A stretch of DNA of 64,000 nt, from contig CALSTG010000002.1 in NCBI GenBank assembly GCA_943789205.1, positions 124,001 to 188,000 of the forward strand. Reading direction: 5' to 3'. A program made the translations under genes and the position numbers. Below are positions 4,364-41,525 of the stretch, piece by piece. The notes beneath the pieces are model-generated. The model had not been told where the DNA came from. It did no database searches and saw only the letters and a list, made by a program, of their open reading frames with translations. This stretch comes from an uncultured Flavobacteriales bacterium. Its GTDB lineage: Bacteria; Bacteroidota; Bacteroidia; Flavobacteriales_D; Crocinitomicaceae. Position 1 is the stretch's first letter. Every line of letters starts with the position of its first letter.

Positions 4364-5155
4364 ATGATCAAAGTAGTTAAAATTATTTTTGTGTTTCTTA
4401 CGCTTTATTCAAGTGCTCAAGTTACCGTTTACACTACGGATTTTCAAAATGGACTTCCTGGTGATTTTACCTTTATAAATAACGATGGTAACGCGCCATT
4501 TGACCCAAGTTATTCGGCGCCTTGGATCTGTATTGAGGATCCAGAAAATCCAAGTGATAGCATTGCAGCAAGCACCTCCTATTTTGTAACGCCGGACACT
4601 GCGGATCGTTGGATGATTACTCCAGAATTATCTCTAGGTGCATATGGCAACCAAATCAATTGGAATGCAAAATCACAGGACGCCTCATTTCCGGATGATT
4701 ACTATGTACTTGTTTCCACAACGGATAATTCATTGGAAAGCTTTGTTGATACTGTCGGGTACATTGAGGGTGAAAACTTTGAGTGGACCGAGAGGCTGGT
4801 TGACTTGAGTGATGCCGGTTATAATGATCAAAGTGTTTACGTTGCTTTTGTTTTGCGTACATATGATGGCTTCAAATTGTATATAGATGATATTGAGGTG
4901 ATAAAAGAAGATGATGCAGGAGTCAATACGTTTACTAATTTCACTTATGAGCTTTATCCAAATCCAGTTAAAGTAAAGCTTCAAATCAATTGTAATATCA
5001 GCATAGATGAAATAATTATATTAGATTATAAAGGTCGTAAAGTTTATATTGGACAGGATAAAAATATAGATGTCAGTGAATTCAATCCAGGTCTTTATAT
5101 GATCAATGTCAAAACTTCCTTAGGGGAAGTGACTAAAAGATTTATTAAATACTAG
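4364..5155 (+). CDS. Secreted protein with T9SS type A sorting domain
   Basis: A 263-residue exported protein: signal peptide (MIKVVKIIFVFLTLYSSAQ), then a beta-rich domain of the choice-of-anchor-J / cleaved-adhesin type (YTTDFQNGLPGDF, APWICIED, DRWMITPELSL, FVLRTYDGFKLYIDDIEV), then a C-terminal type IX sorting domain starting at YELYPNPVKVKLQI and ending GLYMINVKTSLGEVTKRF. The C-terminal signal predicts passage through the T9SS outer-membrane pore and attachment or release at the cell surface. Substrate or binding partner unknown. Starts 8 nt after the DUF4268 gene. Confidence 0.85.
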   Translation: MIKVVKIIFVFLTLYSSAQVTVYTTDFQNGLPGDFTFINNDGNAPFDPSYSAPWICIEDPENPSDSIAASTSYFVTPDTADRWMITPELSLGAYGNQINWNAKSQDASFPDDYYVLVSTTDNSLESFVDTVGYIEGENFEWTERLVDLSDAGYNDQSVYVAFVLRTYDGFKLYIDDIEVIKEDDAGVNTFTNFTYELYPNPVKVKLQINCNISIDEIIILDYKGRKVYIGQDKNIDVSEFNPGLYMINVKTSLGEVTKRFIKY

Positions 5156-29327: not shown

Positions 29328-29373
29328 GAATGACTATTGTTTACAGTAATTGAAAACATATAAATTAAGTTGT

Positions 29374-30525
29374 ATGAAATATATAATATCTTTCCTATTG
29401 TCAATCTTGATTGCCGCTCCTTTTAATGCTCAGGAAACTATGAGAATCCAAGATGTCAATCTAGAATGGATTGATGATTATTATTTGGGAGATAGCATAC
29501 TTAAAAAAAGACTTCAAAATTTCTATAAAGATTTGAATGAGGCATCAAATCCATTTGAAACTGAAGCGCTCTTCTACGAACTTCGAGATCTTTGCGAGTC
29601 ACTTACTTATGGTATTGAACTAAATGAAGAAGATGATTTCGTGTCATACGAAAATGACATGAACGATGCCATTCAAGTTCTTGGCTCATTCAATTTACCG
29701 GGGTTTGATTTTACATGTGCAGGGGAATGCACCATGTTTTATGTTAGACCGCATTATGGACCTATTCTTGACGTTGCGTCATACACGCCAGGACTTCATG
29801 ATGATATAGCCTTGAAGATTATTACAGATACCTGGGGAGTTTTAGAGGATGAATCGCCGAGCTTTCAAATGGTTGAATGTTGTGCATGTCCAGGTTCAAA
29901 CAGACTCGGAAGCGGCGAGCAATATGCGCTATTAAGGAGAATAAACAAGTTTACGGATAATCATGATCTATTTGTAGATGAACTTGAATCGATTAAATCG
30001 ACTATGAAAAATTATATCCTTTATAATGATGGCTTCCCTATGGATGAGGCAGCTGTTATAGATGAGTTCAATCTAATTAGAAATGAACTTAGTTTTAACG
30101 AAAAAGAGTTAGACATATTAATGAAAAAAGATATTTTTCAGTCTATTACACTAAACTACTCTATTGAACAAGGTCAGTTTTATGTGAATGGTAAGCAAGT
30201 TCCGACAGGCTGTATTGCACAACTAAAAACAGAGCTAAATGGAGACAATTCGCAGGCAGTCATATATCTTGACCGGACAAGTCTTAGGGGCTGCATGAAT
30301 TCCAATATCGCATATCCTGGTGGAAATGAAGAAGCCCTGTCATATACTATAAATGACTCTCTGAGTAATGACACTTATAAAATAACAGTTTTTGAAGCTG
30401 TTAATGGTAGTCTTGGAGTTTCTGCTGACAAAATTATTGTTCAATTTGTTAAGCGTGATTACCTTCTAGAGGATGATGAGAAGATATATGTCCTCAGCTT
30501 ATCTAAAATCGGTGATTGGAAATAA
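29374..30525 (+). CDS. Hypothetical secreted protein with CCxC...LGSG motif
   Basis: 383 residues from the ATG that begins the signal peptide (MKYIISFLLSILIAAPFNAQ); the frame is open to a TTG at 29350, but that would bury the signal. Not a known family to me. The middle part (about 50-230) aligns with the protein at 32506-33327: LPGFDF, ECCACPGSNRLGSG versus DICCDCAQESALGSG, LF..EL..IKSTMKN-LY and a following EFNLI. A separate C-terminal beta-rich domain (about 245-383; GQFYVNGKQVPTGC, IYLDRTSLRGCMN) is absent from the paralogue. Cysteines suggest disulfides or metal binding in the periplasm. Confidence 0.7.
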   Translation: MKYIISFLLSILIAAPFNAQETMRIQDVNLEWIDDYYLGDSILKKRLQNFYKDLNEASNPFETEALFYELRDLCESLTYGIELNEEDDFVSYENDMNDAIQVLGSFNLPGFDFTCAGECTMFYVRPHYGPILDVASYTPGLHDDIALKIITDTWGVLEDESPSFQMVECCACPGSNRLGSGEQYALLRRINKFTDNHDLFVDELESIKSTMKNYILYNDGFPMDEAAVIDEFNLIRNELSFNEKELDILMKKDIFQSITLNYSIEQGQFYVNGKQVPTGCIAQLKTELNGDNSQAVIYLDRTSLRGCMNSNIAYPGGNEEALSYTINDSLSNDTYKITVFEAVNGSLGVSADKIIVQFVKRDYLLEDDEKIYVLSLSKIGDWK

Positions 30526-32505: not shown

Positions 32506-33327
32506 ATGTGCAAAGTTGGTATTGCTATAATTTTATTTTTTCAGTCGCTTATCGGGTACGGCCAGCAAAGTGATTTTTTTAATGCAGCGTTGCCGACATT
32601 GAATAAATATTTTTCTAAAGACGAAACCCTACACAAAAGAGTAAATGATTTTTATGATTCACTAGATAGCTGTCACGATACATCCACAGTAGATTGGCTA
32701 TTCGGAGAACAAGGTGAAGTTAGCGCACTTTTAGCTAATAATTTTGAACCAAATAAAATTTGGACAGAAGGATTAACCATAGAACACGTATTAATAAATC
32801 TAAATAAATTCCTTCCTGGCTTTCAGTTTAATGAAACTGACGCCGGTGATTTTCATCTTCTGGTATATCCAAATATGCAATTCATATTCGACCATGCCTC
32901 TAAGCACCTGTTAAGAGGGGAGCCTGATGAAACAAGCCTGAAGATCAAAGGGGGCTTTGATATTATCTTTGATGCTTGGAGTTCCGTTAAACATAATTAT
33001 ACTACTTATTGCTACGATATTTGCTGCGACTGCGCACAAGAAAGCGCTTTGGGTTCTGGGTTACATAGTAGGTTGCTTACTGCCATTGTTATATATTCTG
33101 CCCATTCTAATTTGTTTGCCGAAGCCTTAAAAGAAATTAAACAAGGGATTAAAAACGATGTTCTTTATACCTATGCTTTCAGCAGCCCCAAAAAGGCTAT
33201 TCTTGCAGAATTTGCCATAATAAAACCTTTACTAGGGTTAAGCGAGCAAGAAGAGCTGATTTATGAAAAAAAGGAAATGTACCTCGAGGAAACATCCGAA
33301 GAGGACCTTCACAACTATGGGCGTTAG
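32506..33327 (+). CDS. Hypothetical secreted protein, paralogue of the protein at 29374-30525
   Basis: 273 residues, signal peptide-like start (CKVGIAIILFFQSLIGYGQQ). Shares with its paralogue LPGFQFN, the DICCDCAQESALGSG motif (about 180-195), LFAEALKEIKQGIKNDVLY and LAEFAIIKPLLGLSEQEEL. Lacks the second, C-terminal domain. Not assignable to a family by reading; probably periplasmic. Convergent with the UbiA-like gene, overlapping it by 4 nt. Confidence 0.65.
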   Translation: MCKVGIAIILFFQSLIGYGQQSDFFNAALPTLNKYFSKDETLHKRVNDFYDSLDSCHDTSTVDWLFGEQGEVSALLANNFEPNKIWTEGLTIEHVLINLNKFLPGFQFNETDAGDFHLLVYPNMQFIFDHASKHLLRGEPDETSLKIKGGFDIIFDAWSSVKHNYTTYCYDICCDCAQESALGSGLHSRLLTAIVIYSAHSNLFAEALKEIKQGIKNDVLYTYAFSSPKKAILAEFAIIKPLLGLSEQEELIYEKKEMYLEETSEEDLHNYGR

Positions 33328-38574: not shown

Positions 38575-38607
38575 CAAAGTTAATAGTTCTATGCTTCTGA
38601 AATGCAA
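38575..38607 (-). promoter_or_regulatory. Promoter of the mevalonate operon
   Basis: Read on the minus strand: TTG (38605-38607), 22-nt spacer, TAACTTTG (38575-38582), an exact Bacteroidota -33/-7 pair. Expected start near 38568 gives a leader of about 12 nt before the HMG-CoA reductase ATG. The remaining bases up to 38700 show no further clear signal apart from TACCTTTA at 38702 (+), a near match that may serve the opposite direction. Confidence 0.65.
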
Positions 38608-38716
38608 TAGAATTATTGAGTTTTAAACAGATTTTGCGCATAGATGTTCATACCCTGTCCTTATATATTTTAGTATCTCAGTGTAATTTTTTAAAAGTTT
38701 TTACCTTTACAGCATA

Positions 38717-38873
38717 GAAATCATTAAGAGTTCCGTGTTATTAACGGATGCCAACCGATCCCTAGCAGGGCACGGTGGAAAAACAATGAGAGGCTCGCAC
38801 CTAAAAACAAACCGCGAATCCCATTTATATTTCTCTTAATGATGAATTGTTTAACCTTTTAAAACTTTTCATT
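38717..38873 (+). promoter_or_regulatory. Duplicated structured leader element, copy 1 (candidate cis-regulatory RNA)
   Basis: Almost identical, without gaps, to 39648-39804 (offset 931). Visible pairings: closing stem TCATTAAGAG (38721-38730) with CTCTTAATGA (38833-38842); hairpin TCCGT...ACGGA (38732-38748); stem CC-ACCG (38751-38757, one bulged A) with CGGTGG (38773-38778) around an inner CCCT/AGGG hairpin; TCGC (38795-38798) with GCGA (38814-38817), which together with AGG/CCT (38791-38793 / 38800-38802) would form a small pseudoknot. A 7-codon ORF MMNCLTF (38839-38862) follows, starting inside the closing stem. It lies directly before the N-formylglutamate amidohydrolase-like gene. I cannot match it to a known riboswitch class. 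Confidence 0.75.
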
Positions 38874-39626
38874 TTGAATAAACTAATATTACATATACCG
38901 CATGCCTCTGATTACATACCTGATTTGACCATGTACAGTGTCGACCAAAAAGCATTTAAACAAGAGATCCTTAAATTAACAGATTGGTATACCGATGATT
39001 TGTTCATATTAAATGATGCCCAGACTATAAAAGCAAATTTTTCTCGGGTTTTTTGTGATGTTGAAAGATTCTCTGAGGATTCAAAAGAAATTATGGCGCA
39101 ATGCGGGATGGGTGTCCTTTATGAAAAAACCGACAATGGTCTAACGCTAAGAATTGTAAATCAGGAGATGCGAAACTATATATTAAAAAACTATTACTGG
39201 CCGCATCATGAGAAGCTAAATCAAGCTGTAAATCAGGAGTTGAAAAAATTCGGTAAGGCAACTATTGTAGATTGCCATTCTTTTCCCAACAAACCATTTA
39301 AGAGAGACCTTGATCAAAACCCCGATAGACCTGATTTTAATATTGGCACCGACGCCTTTCATACGCCTCAAGAACTTATTAGACTATCCGAGACTTTCTT
39401 TAATAAAAAAGGTTATTCGGTTGGAATCGATTGGCCTTACAAAGGCACCATTGTGCCACTAGCTCATTATAAAAAAAACAAAAATGTTCAATCAATCATG
39501 CTTGAGGTAAATCGAGCTTTATACATGAATGAAAACACGAATTCACGTTCAAACCGGTACCTAGTAACAAAAGATATTATTCAAGAATATTTAAGATTAT
39601 TAAAAGAGATTTGTAATCTTTTATAA
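38874..39626 (+). CDS. N-formylglutamate amidohydrolase family protein
   Basis: 250 residues, zinc amidohydrolase of the FGase (HutG) family, known to act on N-formylglutamate or related N-acyl amino acids. LILHIPHASDYIPDL (first His motif), FSRVFCDVERFSED (Arg/Asp motif), YYWPHHEKLNQAV, ATIVDCHSFPNKPF (DCHSF, metal ligand) and SIMLEVNRALYMNE are seen. The start is taken as TTG at 38874 because it aligns exactly with the ATG of the gene behind the second leader copy; the frame is also open back to TTG 38847. No other histidine-degradation genes are nearby, so the substrate is open. Confidence 0.87.
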   Translation: MNKLILHIPHASDYIPDLTMYSVDQKAFKQEILKLTDWYTDDLFILNDAQTIKANFSRVFCDVERFSEDSKEIMAQCGMGVLYEKTDNGLTLRIVNQEMRNYILKNYYWPHHEKLNQAVNQELKKFGKATIVDCHSFPNKPFKRDLDQNPDRPDFNIGTDAFHTPQELIRLSETFFNKKGYSVGIDWPYKGTIVPLAHYKKNKNVQSIMLEVNRALYMNENTNSRSNRYLVTKDIIQEYLRLLKEICNLL

Positions 39627-39647
39627 CTTCTTGCGTTAGAGTAATAG

Positions 39648-39804
39648 AAAATCATTAAGAGTTCCGTGAAAGTCACGGATGCCAACCGATCCTTCGCAGG
39701 GCACGGTGGAAAAAAGATGAGAGGCTCGCACCTAAAAACAAATAGCGAATCCCATTTATATTTCTCTTGATGATGAATTGTTTAACCTTTTAAAACATTT
39801 CATT
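39648..39804 (+). promoter_or_regulatory. Duplicated structured leader element, copy 2 (candidate cis-regulatory RNA)
   Basis: Second copy, in the gap between the amidohydrolase-like gene and an unrelated gene. About 13 differences from copy 1 in 160 positions, concentrated in the loop of the first hairpin (here TCCGTGA-AAG-TCACGGA, a longer stem), the inner loop of the second and the linkers. The closing stem keeps its pairing through an A-to-G change that makes a G-U pair (ATCATTAAGAG with CTCTTGATGAT). The MMNCLTF upstream ORF is kept (39770-39793). The element ends at the ATG 39805. Confidence 0.75.
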
Positions 39805-40485
39805 ATGTCAAATCAATTTGAAAAAAGACTCAGAACTTACTCTGACCTGGCGCTTGTAAAATCTTACAACAAAGACCTTGGCCACAACGGCTGGGTATCA
39901 TCTAGAGGTGAATTTCATATCGCTCTACGTGCCGAGATGTATCGTCGTGGTTTAAATCCTGGTGCCATTATGCACATGCGAGGGTTTCATCTAAAAAAGG
40001 AATTCGAATCTGCACTCGTTGCCATGAATATCCTTCCAATTCAAAAGCTCGGTAAACAAACCTTAGCACAGCTCATCTTGGACACCGAAAGCCAAAAACA
40101 CGAAGTCGTACTGCTTAGTCCAAAACTCGTTTTATTGAATGACCCAATTGTTAGGCTCAAAGAACATCTAGAATATGATCATTCACCTGTCTTATTTGCT
40201 GTTCAGCATGAAAATGTACAAACCATTTTCGATGTTAGTGGCCTACAAGACCAATTCTTGATTGGATTCAATACACGTAACAAAATTAAATCTGTGAATT
40301 GGATCAATGGAGACGCAAGGCATGTATTTCAGATGGCAGTATCCAGTAAGACCTTGTTGAGTATCCCTAAAAAAGTTATTCTCGAATCGTCAAGTTATCT
40401 CCTTGGGAAAAGAACGAATCTCGAAAGATTCATAAATGATATTGTAAAAATTGAATTGGTAAACCCTTTAAACTCAAACTCATGA
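39805..40485 (+). CDS. Hypothetical protein downstream of leader copy 2
   Basis: 226 residues, no signal peptide or membrane segment; not recognised. The N-terminus is basic and helical (MSNQFEKRLRTYSDLALVKS), with WVSSRGEFHIALRAEMYRRG, then LGKQTLAQLILDTESQ and a C-terminal part with alternating strands (VLFAVQHENVQTIFDVSG, SVNWINGDARHVFQMAVSS). Start ATG 39805 aligns with the start of the gene behind leader copy 1, although the proteins are unrelated. Its stop overlaps the next gene's start by 4 nt (ATGA), so these are translationally coupled. Confidence 0.65.
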   Translation: MSNQFEKRLRTYSDLALVKSYNKDLGHNGWVSSRGEFHIALRAEMYRRGLNPGAIMHMRGFHLKKEFESALVAMNILPIQKLGKQTLAQLILDTESQKHEVVLLSPKLVLLNDPIVRLKEHLEYDHSPVLFAVQHENVQTIFDVSGLQDQFLIGFNTRNKIKSVNWINGDARHVFQMAVSSKTLLSIPKKVILESSSYLLGKRTNLERFINDIVKIELVNPLNSNS

Positions 40486-41525
40486 AAAACACACTTAAAT
40501 CCTTAGTTTTTATATCGTTAAGCCTTGTTTCTTATGGTCAAGAAAACATTGACAATAACAATACCATAGAAGAACCGCAATCCTTTCAAATACTCGAAAA
40601 GAATGGCAAGACCCATTATTTCGGACAGGCCTACAAAAACCAAAAAAAAGGTATTGGAACTGAATTTTTGGAGAATGGTTCTATTCGCACAGGTTATTTT
40701 GAAAACGATACGTTTTTAGGAGAATTCATCGTTGCTCCACCTTGGCATTTACTCGATGTTGACTACGAGTTCAAGAGCGATATGCCATTCGAAAAATTCT
40801 CTATAGACTTGACTATAAAAAGAGAAATTGACGACTCCGCATACTTTTATATTGCGCCATTTACCGGAGAGATTAATGGTATTGGATTCTATGGTGGAAT
40901 TCAAACCCAAGGAGGCGGATATACTTCTCCGAATCATAATATAGATGGAAGTTCTTTTTCAATTCTAGGTAGAATTGGAATCTTTTCGAGATGGGGTATT
41001 CGTGATCCAAAAGCTATAAAAATTGCACCCAACGGCAGGTGCGAAAGCAGCGGATATGAAGGTGATTTTGTGAGTGTACGAAATAACCTCGATTGGTCAA
41101 AAGGCACTTACACTTTAGAAATTCGAAATACCCATGAAAGAATAACCATTGATTCCGTACTTCATACTTACGTTGAAATGAGCATATACAATCATCAAAC
41201 GACGGAACTGGTATCAGTTGGAAAGCTAGCCTTCCCTGGTAAACAAATGGTACTAGCAAAAAGAAACTTTATGTTTATTGAGCACTACAGTACGTATAAG
41301 AAACTCGTCGAAATTCCCAAGGGACAAATCACCTTAAGTAAGGTGAAAATCGATGATAAACTCCAAAACATACACAATGTTTGGGACGTCTCAGAAAAAA
41401 AATACCCAATTTGGGCACGATCTTGGACTGAGGGAAATGTCATTCAAATCCAATTTGGAGAGCCATACACACGGACAAATTATGGCGAAACACCAAAGTT
41501 TTACTTCAATAATATCAAAGATTAA
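40482..41525 (+). CDS. Hypothetical secreted protein with MORN-like and DUF3472-like parts
   Basis: 347 residues with signal peptide (MKNTLKSLVFISLSLVSYGQ). Residues about 45-85 resemble two MORN-type repeats (HYFGQAYKNQKKGIGTEFL, GSIRTGYFENDTFLGEF). The following beta-rich region (SAYFYIAPFTGEINGIGFYGGIQ, GRIGIFSRWGIRD, GRCESSGYEGDFVSVRNNLDW) is similar in style to DUF3472 of surface proteins; this is low-confidence reading. No T9SS tail is seen. Coupled by overlap to genes on both sides. Confidence 0.6.
   Translation: MKNTLKSLVFISLSLVSYGQENIDNNNTIEEPQSFQILEKNGKTHYFGQAYKNQKKGIGTEFLENGSIRTGYFENDTFLGEFIVAPPWHLLDVDYEFKSDMPFEKFSIDLTIKREIDDSAYFYIAPFTGEINGIGFYGGIQTQGGGYTSPNHNIDGSSFSILGRIGIFSRWGIRDPKAIKIAPNGRCESSGYEGDFVSVRNNLDWSKGTYTLEIRNTHERITIDSVLHTYVEMSIYNHQTTELVSVGKLAFPGKQMVLAKRNFMFIEHYSTYKKLVEIPKGQITLSKVKIDDKLQNIHNVWDVSEKKYPIWARSWTEGNVIQIQFGEPYTRTNYGETPKFYFNNIKD

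Follow-up and report, generated by a model that had tools for sequence, protein, structure and literature searches.

Why should the same non-coding leader stand in front of two genes whose products appear unrelated? The question is raised by a locus in a window of 64,000 nucleotides, by which we mean the whole stretch of DNA analysed, from an uncultured Flavobacteriales bacterium. Positions 38717-38876 and 39648-39807 of this window align without gaps and are identical at 146 of 160 positions, leaving 14 differences, where the closest of 200 shuffles reached 57 of 160. The match breaks off at the start codons, TTG at 38874-38876 and ATG at 39805-39807, and a weaker likeness (24 of 36 positions identical, with a one-base offset) runs 5' of both leaders from a common TGTAAT box (38682 and 39612), so that the promoter region is apparently part of what is repeated. 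The first-pass annotation had reported a gapless 160-nt repeat with about 13 differences that begins before the first stem and stops at the start codons; the repeat and its 3' limit hold, and the weaker likeness continues upstream. Behind copy 1 lies an FGase-family amidohydrolase gene (38874..39626, + strand; PF05013, E 8.5e-46), whose TTG start was chosen by alignment with copy 2, and behind copy 2 lies the gene of an unnamed two-domain protein, D1-D2 (39805..40485, + strand), which has no Pfam match at E<=1 and whose domains recur separately behind related RNAs. By eye, the two proteins have in common only a few residues, read from the leader if an upstream TTG is used, in agreement with the earlier view that they are unrelated. 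The strict core pattern of the leader occurs in the window only at these two sites, with a chance expectation of 0.00.

We favour, at a probability of about 0.72, the reading that each copy is a riboswitch of Rfam family RF01725 (SAM-I/IV) acting as a translational OFF switch by SAM, with the 5' strand of helix P1 as the switching strand. This reading builds on the family match, the kept SAM-contact positions, pairing and covariation in the aptamer and in an anti-P1 helix, the recurrence of gene families behind the RNA and, more weakly, a helix over the start codon; from sequence, we infer SAM binding, the OFF direction and control at translation. RF01725 matched copy 1 at 45.2 bits and copy 2 at 46.0 bits, with a gathering cut-off of 41.1; Infernal alignments of both copies span the full model, and RF01725 is the best clan match of each, so that membership of the leaders in this known aptamer family is supported. 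The leader, which the first-pass annotation could assign to no riboswitch class, therefore carries an aptamer of a class already described in Rfam and is not novel in that respect. A cmscan search of the window returned three matches over Rfam cut-offs, namely one tRNA and the two RF01725 copies. Near the leaders, families other than RF01725 gave only matches far below family cut-offs; a formylglutamate, glutamate or folate switch was not retained, and no support was found for the N-formylglutamate, glutamate and folate ligands suggested earlier. A tRNA reading of the leaders was likewise discarded (no tRNA in 38600-39900), as was a phage origin (0 exact core-pattern matches in viral contigs).

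The leaders share with SAM-I/IV riboswitches the P1-P2-P3 core, an uninterrupted P2, the CAACC/GGUG core and a hairpin 3' of P1, as well as a score above the gathering cut-off. They differ in two features, the proposed switching through the P1 5' strand and genes of unknown function, that are not described in the accessible part of the report on that family (PMC2864571), where the 'SAM-I-IV-variant' is typically found in metagenome sequences (Weinberg et al. 2010). With SAM-I riboswitches (RF00162), the leaders have the clan and the ligand-contact positions in common, but they lack the P2 kink-turn and pseudoknot and the internal P4, P2 aligning as a plain hairpin and RF01725 fitting better, and they carry C43-G59 instead of G43-C59. 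As far as the accessible text of the open-licence literature searched extends, we found no description of the genes under these leaders or of their platform. At E<=0.001, RF01725 was detected in 54 of 299 genomes of the order (51 over the cut-off) and in 34 of 395 genomes of the phylum (30 over the cut-off). The strict core was recovered in 56 named stretches, by their titles 34 of Flavobacteriales, Flavobacteriia, Crocinitomicaceae or Crocinitomix, 10 of other Bacteroidota and 12 of other phyla; not every one of the 56 is an RNA, and some of the 12 outside Bacteroidota look like chance or SAM-I.

In copy 1, the aptamer core occupies 38721..38789 (+ strand, as for all RNA elements below), with P1 at 38721-38725/38785-38789, J1/2 at 38726-38730, P2 at 38732-38737/38743-38748 and P3 at 38751-38761/38768-38778, followed by the P4 hairpin (38791-38793/38800-38802, in the region 38791..38818) and a possible pseudoknot, with one mismatch, between the 3' side at 38814-38818 and the P3 loop at 38762-38766. 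The corresponding elements of copy 2 are the core at 39652..39720, P1 at 39652-39656/39716-39720, J1/2 at 39657-39661, P2 at 39663-39668/39674-39679, P3 at 39682-39692/39699-39709, P4 at 39722-39724/39731-39733 (region 39722..39749) and a pseudoknot of 5 bp between 39745-39749 (GCGAA) and the P3 loop at 39693-39697 (TTCGC). Pairs were counted on alignment A6, comprising 22 leaders hand-chosen from 37, of Flavobacteriales type and with the start codon in reach, in which three leader ends, copy 1 included, were lengthened manually so as to reach the start codon. On these 22 leaders, P1 was paired in 96.4% of cells, P2 in 98.5%, and P3 and the 3' hairpin P4 in 100% each. The aptamer pairs, pseudoknot included, were formed in 89.1% of cells, and their covariation score was reached by 0 of 500 shuffles; for further pair types, 399 of 500 shuffles were as high. 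In the SAM clan, the P3 loop forms a pseudoknot with the 3' tail. Here that pseudoknot is weak (42.5% of cells on the 22 leaders; own partner above foreign in 30 of 54, p 0.04) and in copy 1 imperfect, which counts against the SAM OFF-switch reading. The anchors CAACC and GGU were present in 100 of 100 hits, these hits coming from a model that rewards both. With the RF01725 match, the covariation and the many relatives, the earlier proposal of a structured cis-regulatory RNA before both genes is borne out.

Positions in the pocket were assessed with the SAM-contact list and SAM-I numbering in the accessible part of PMC6890682. Leaders less than 85% alike were kept as a non-redundant set, 61 of 100, in which the pair next to the pocket is C43-G59 in 54 and the SAM-I-like G43-C59 in 7. 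Among the 54 C43-G59 leaders, A6 and G58 are each conserved in 53, U7, G11 and A12 in all 54, and A45, A46 and U57 are also kept; SAM is the likely ligand. The flip of the pair is not new as such, given that the Rfam consensus of RF01725 has lower-case c and g at 43-59.

The flipped pair nonetheless bears on another reading, rather unlikely in our estimate, by which the SAM-clan fold was kept and C43-G59 goes with a different compound. The prevalence of C43-G59 over G43-C59 in the non-redundant set would suit such a change, position 59 lies within 5 A of SAM in SAM-I (PMC6890682, accessible part), and the gene contexts of the two types differ. First genes were picked by a mechanical rule, which probably admitted a few spurious frames and gave one for 52 of the 54 C43-G59 leaders. 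Behind the 7 G43-C59 leaders, it returned metH, metK, a Cys/Met PLP enzyme, two Na+/H+ antiporters, a TonB plug and one gene without a match; behind the 52 non-redundant C43-G59 leaders, metK comes first three times and few of the remaining genes have a Pfam match at E<=0.001, there being 26 families of which the 25 listed read as about seven proteins. The genes behind the leaders are mostly without a Pfam match. That few are methionine genes weighs against the SAM OFF-switch reading, as does the ordinary SAM-I riboswitch (82.9 bits, canonical) that the window's genome holds beside its two RF01725 matches over the cut-off and that precedes a gene reading like metH. There is also a precedent in the spermidine-sensing SAM-I variants, which share with the leaders the SAM-clan fold and an unusual gene context and one of which also precedes metK (PMC10853860, accessible part). 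However, the spermidine class is described there as changed in J1/2 and in the P3 internal loop; the leaders lack these changes and, unlike that class, retain all eight contacts listed above (A6 and G58 in 53 of 54), and none of the genes seen behind these RNAs was a polyamine gene. Additionally, the flip is that of the RF01725 consensus itself, metK does occur behind the C43-G59 type, the three cases in 52 being counted for the SAM reading, and the G43-C59 set is small, its metH member being a SAM-I RNA under the RF01725 cut-off. In its fullest form, to which we likewise give little credence, the alternative would make the C43-G59 branch a separate class that senses another ligand than SAM, or a second one besides SAM. 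A shortage of this ligand would then lead to expression, from ECF-like promoters, of a hidden regulon made up of D1, D2, FGase, DUF3472-like and other unnamed families. Should the ligand not be SAM, the leaders would add one more variant class to a fold that is already well studied.

For the SAM OFF switch that we prefer, the central element is a strand that can pair with the 5' strand of P1. The latter together with J1/2, AUCAUUAAGAG, is complementary to CUCUUAAUGAU in copy 1 and CUCUUGAUGAU in copy 2, about 100 nt downstream; the anti-P1 strand of copy 1 (38833..38843) is complementary to 38720-38730 and that of copy 2 (39764..39774) to 39651-39661. Tested against shuffled downstream DNA in 71 hits, the best anti-P1 helix reached p<0.05 in 44, among them 25 at p<0.01, and fell short of p<0.05 in the other 27. 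In 42 of 54 leaders, the own partner scored higher than foreign partners did on average, and in 22 of 54 it outdid 95% of them; among the seven G43-C59 leaders, of which this test counted 4, the own partner lay above the foreign mean in 2. On the 22-leader alignment, the helix was formed in 85.9% of cells, with a covariation score attained by 0 of 500 shuffles and by no slid register; pairs changed on both sides were as many in 86 of 500 shuffles. In another subtype, divergent partners are found, GUAUUUCGA with UCGAAAUAC. Because related sequences can exceed shuffles without structure, the slid registers and divergent partners weigh more for the anti-P1 helix. As in P1-helix-regulated strand-exchange riboswitches, P1 here competes with a helix of the expression platform, but the accessible part of a review of that group names the P1 3' strand as the switching strand (PMC11477058), whereas the leaders would switch the 5' strand. 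The P1 5' strand as switching strand would be an unusual platform, and this proposed 5'-strand expression platform, with the set of unnamed genes under the leaders, is what looks new and testable in the present system; the presence or absence of exactly one promoter-RNA-FGase unit in relatives, described below, looks new as well.

A second helix, the putative sequestrator, joins the start region to a segment that overlaps the anti-P1 strand. In copy 1 (38839..38875), 38839-38846 pairs imperfectly with 38868-38875, into the start codon, and in copy 2 (39770..39806), 39770-39777 pairs with 39799-39806, into the ATG. With leaders lacking a near start left out, 42 of 71 leaders entered the shuffle test of this helix, of which 25 gave p<0.05 and 17 gave p>=0.05; 32 entered the own-versus-foreign test (28 of the C43-G59 type), of which 26 paired better with their own partner (Wilcoxon 8e-6). 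On A6, it was formed in 78.3% of cells, as high in 14 of 500 shuffles, and two of the five A6 measures did not rise above shuffles (reached by 188 and 61 of 500 shuffles). The start-codon helix is moderately supported, and its covariation is weaker than that of the anti-P1 helix. When the 22 leaders were folded with either the aptamer or the anti-P1 helix imposed, the region from -9 to +6 was more paired with the aptamer in 19 of 22, and the start codon alone in 17 of 22. Computed energies, which leave out ligand and pseudoknot, favour the anti-P1 helix by 7.7 kcal/mol in copy 2 and 10.4 kcal/mol in copy 1, to the detriment of the SAM OFF-switch reading; the choice would thus have to be made during transcription, or SAM and the pseudoknot must pay. 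A simple scan of the + strand of 38600-39900 found no terminator-like site, which is in line with control at translation.

The proposed mechanism would run as follows. With SAM bound, P1 would be closed and the anti-P1 strand free to fold back over the ribosome-binding region and the start codon, turning translation off. With SAM scarce, the P1 5' strand and J1/2 would leave the aptamer and pair with the anti-P1 strand, which would open the start codon and turn translation on. Copy 1 would in this way control the FGase gene and copy 2 the D1-D2 gene, and probably also the DUF3472-like gene that overlaps it, each copy apparently under its own promoter. Some leaders of another family (G217, G049) have a different platform, in which a strand of the pseudoknot covers the start codon directly (CGACA with UGUCG). 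We also observed two loci (L012, L054) where metK starts inside the riboswitch hit and part of the AUG lies within the pseudoknot strand UGUCG, a direct mask of the start codon. A short leader peptide, ATGATGAATTGTTTAACCTTTTAA, noticed by eye, was not adopted, several relatives having no ATG.

The same aptamer might instead switch in another manner, that is, ON with SAM, through Rho-dependent termination or through RNA decay, a reading we regard as distinctly unlikely. Start sites in Bacteroidota make little use of Shine-Dalgarno pairing, so that masking of the start codon is something we infer only, and in 5 of the 22 leaders the aptamer state brings no gain of start-codon pairing. Against these points stand the 19 of 22 leaders in which the aptamer state makes the surroundings of the start more paired, and the metK members, which would argue for an OFF switch.

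Under the SAM OFF-switch reading, the leaders would be transcribed from promoters that seem to belong to the repeat. The promoter-like region of copy 1 (38682..38717, + strand) has a TGTAAT box at 38682-38687 and lacks a CGTTA box, and copy 2 has a box pair (39612..39638, + strand), TGTAAT at 39612-39617 and CGTTA at 39634-39638. Upstream of the 22 leaders, which are related and not independent, a TGT[AT][AC] box was found in 15, a CGTTA-like box in 14 and both properly spaced in 11, with shuffle means of 3.4, 1.4 and 0.15, respectively, and a maximum of 2 for both boxes. The two-box pattern TGTAAY ... CGTTA precedes leaders of different genes and looks like an ECF-sigma promoter, the class to which we take such patterns to belong. 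In the window's genome, the pattern is not enriched (13 matches versus 12 of a reversed control), and no ECF regulon is therefore inferred.

The order RNA-FGase-RNA-D1D2 between HMG-CoA reductase and a 260-aa gene is conserved in the window's genome and two others (G000, G240, G286) and is also present in G242, where the left side is off the contig. The same locus with one RNA and without FGase is found in G298, G147 and a TMED16 record (L132), the right side of G147 lying outside the stretch and L132 carrying additional DNA on its left side. G147 combines the left flank of copy 1 with a promoter and an RNA similar to copy 2. The relatives thus carry or lack exactly one promoter-RNA-FGase unit, as recombination between repeats would do. 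Within a genome, the leader copies differ at 1 (G286), 5 (G242), 13 (G000) or 17 positions (G240), and such near-identity suggests occasional gene conversion, or recent duplication. That the leaders merely mark a mobile or duplicated RNA-bearing cassette, with a regulatory role that is secondary or lost, would fit this exact presence or absence of one unit and the nearly identical copies (from 1 difference in G286 to 17 in G240), but is very improbable in view of the covariation in the aptamer and anti-P1 helix, the two promoter boxes upstream of 11 of the 22 leaders, the repeated association of the RNA with the same gene families across several bacterial families and the lack of any exact core-pattern match in viral contigs. 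On the evidence of these relatives, the earlier alternative of a duplicated cassette is right in part, and the first-pass interpretation as a whole is partly supported.

A riboswitch reveals the signal that its gene answers to, and if the leaders bind SAM, several unnamed Bacteroidota protein families would be tied to low SAM and their function made testable. On sequence grounds, the repeated leader seems to control functionally uncharacterised genes by refolding in an unusual way, and this would point to an unstudied low-SAM response. The FGase protein scores 55.9 bits against the HutG N-formylglutamate deformylase equivalog TIGR02017, far under its cut-off of 278.75. FGase genes stand directly behind the RNA in G000, G240, G242, G286 and G149, and behind D2 in G288 and G272. 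D1-D2 is a fusion of two small domains, D1 of about 70 aa and D2 of about 115 aa (AlphaFold pLDDT 88.8). A DUF192-like fold of D2 is possible; membership in DUF192 (PF02643) found no support in the sequence, there being no Pfam match and an hhalign probability of 0.24% against four DUF192 proteins. The DUF3472-like gene (40482..41525, + strand), whose start overlaps the D1-D2 stop, has a weak Pfam match (18.8 bits, cut-off 24.8), and its relatives lie directly behind such RNAs in G210 and G079. When the first gene that could be classified was taken for each of the 61 non-redundant leaders, D2 came up 8 times, D1 twice and the D1-D2 fusion 3 times, this last count being low by one because the G147 leader, which stands for the window's group, was left unclassified; D1 also occurs as a separate gene after D2 (L034, L028, L005). 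Within 4.5 kb downstream of the 100 hits, which are not independent and often have short flanks, D2 was found 31 times, D1 21, DUF3472-like 12, FGase 7 and metK 6, and the same families recur behind the RNA in several bacterial families. D1 gave 18 matches at E<=1e-8, of which 12 are at RNA loci (eight being profile seeds) and 6, some on short contigs, are at loci without a SAM family by cmscan at E<=0.1; the notion that D1 is tied to the RNA was accordingly rejected. A search for phage or defence families related to D1-D2 and its relatives found none that convinces, the best E values being 0.002 in PHROGs and 0.0079 in PADLOC, for one member each.

Several further observations concern these genes and their neighbours. 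A Planctomycetota MAG (L158) has an RNA of the same core, with P1 by eye, before an FGase gene (PF05013, E 6.9e-41); because cmscan does not call this RNA at E<=0.01, L158 is a lead. A second RNA-like stretch of the same core follows that FGase, as in the window (L158:4841-6250), and the neighbouring ORF at 4684-4962 looks cut short. The flipped pair is also seen in two SAM-I riboswitches (RF00162), one from a Planctomycetota MAG (L142:4363-4989) and one from a Myxococcales MAG (L133:3490-4285), which precede proteins that resemble each other by eye and do not look like products of methionine genes. One unnamed protein family is, by eye, the first gene behind the C43-G59 leaders L074, L075, L077, L082, L099 and L049, and the L082 leader is also present in a record titled Aliifodinibius. 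The window's genome has a second FGase gene (G000:C1:550175-550837), at which no RF01725 match was found. Finally, two hypothetical proteins of the window, encoded at 29350-30525 and 32506-33327, are related, a profile of the first finding the second at E 3.5e-142.
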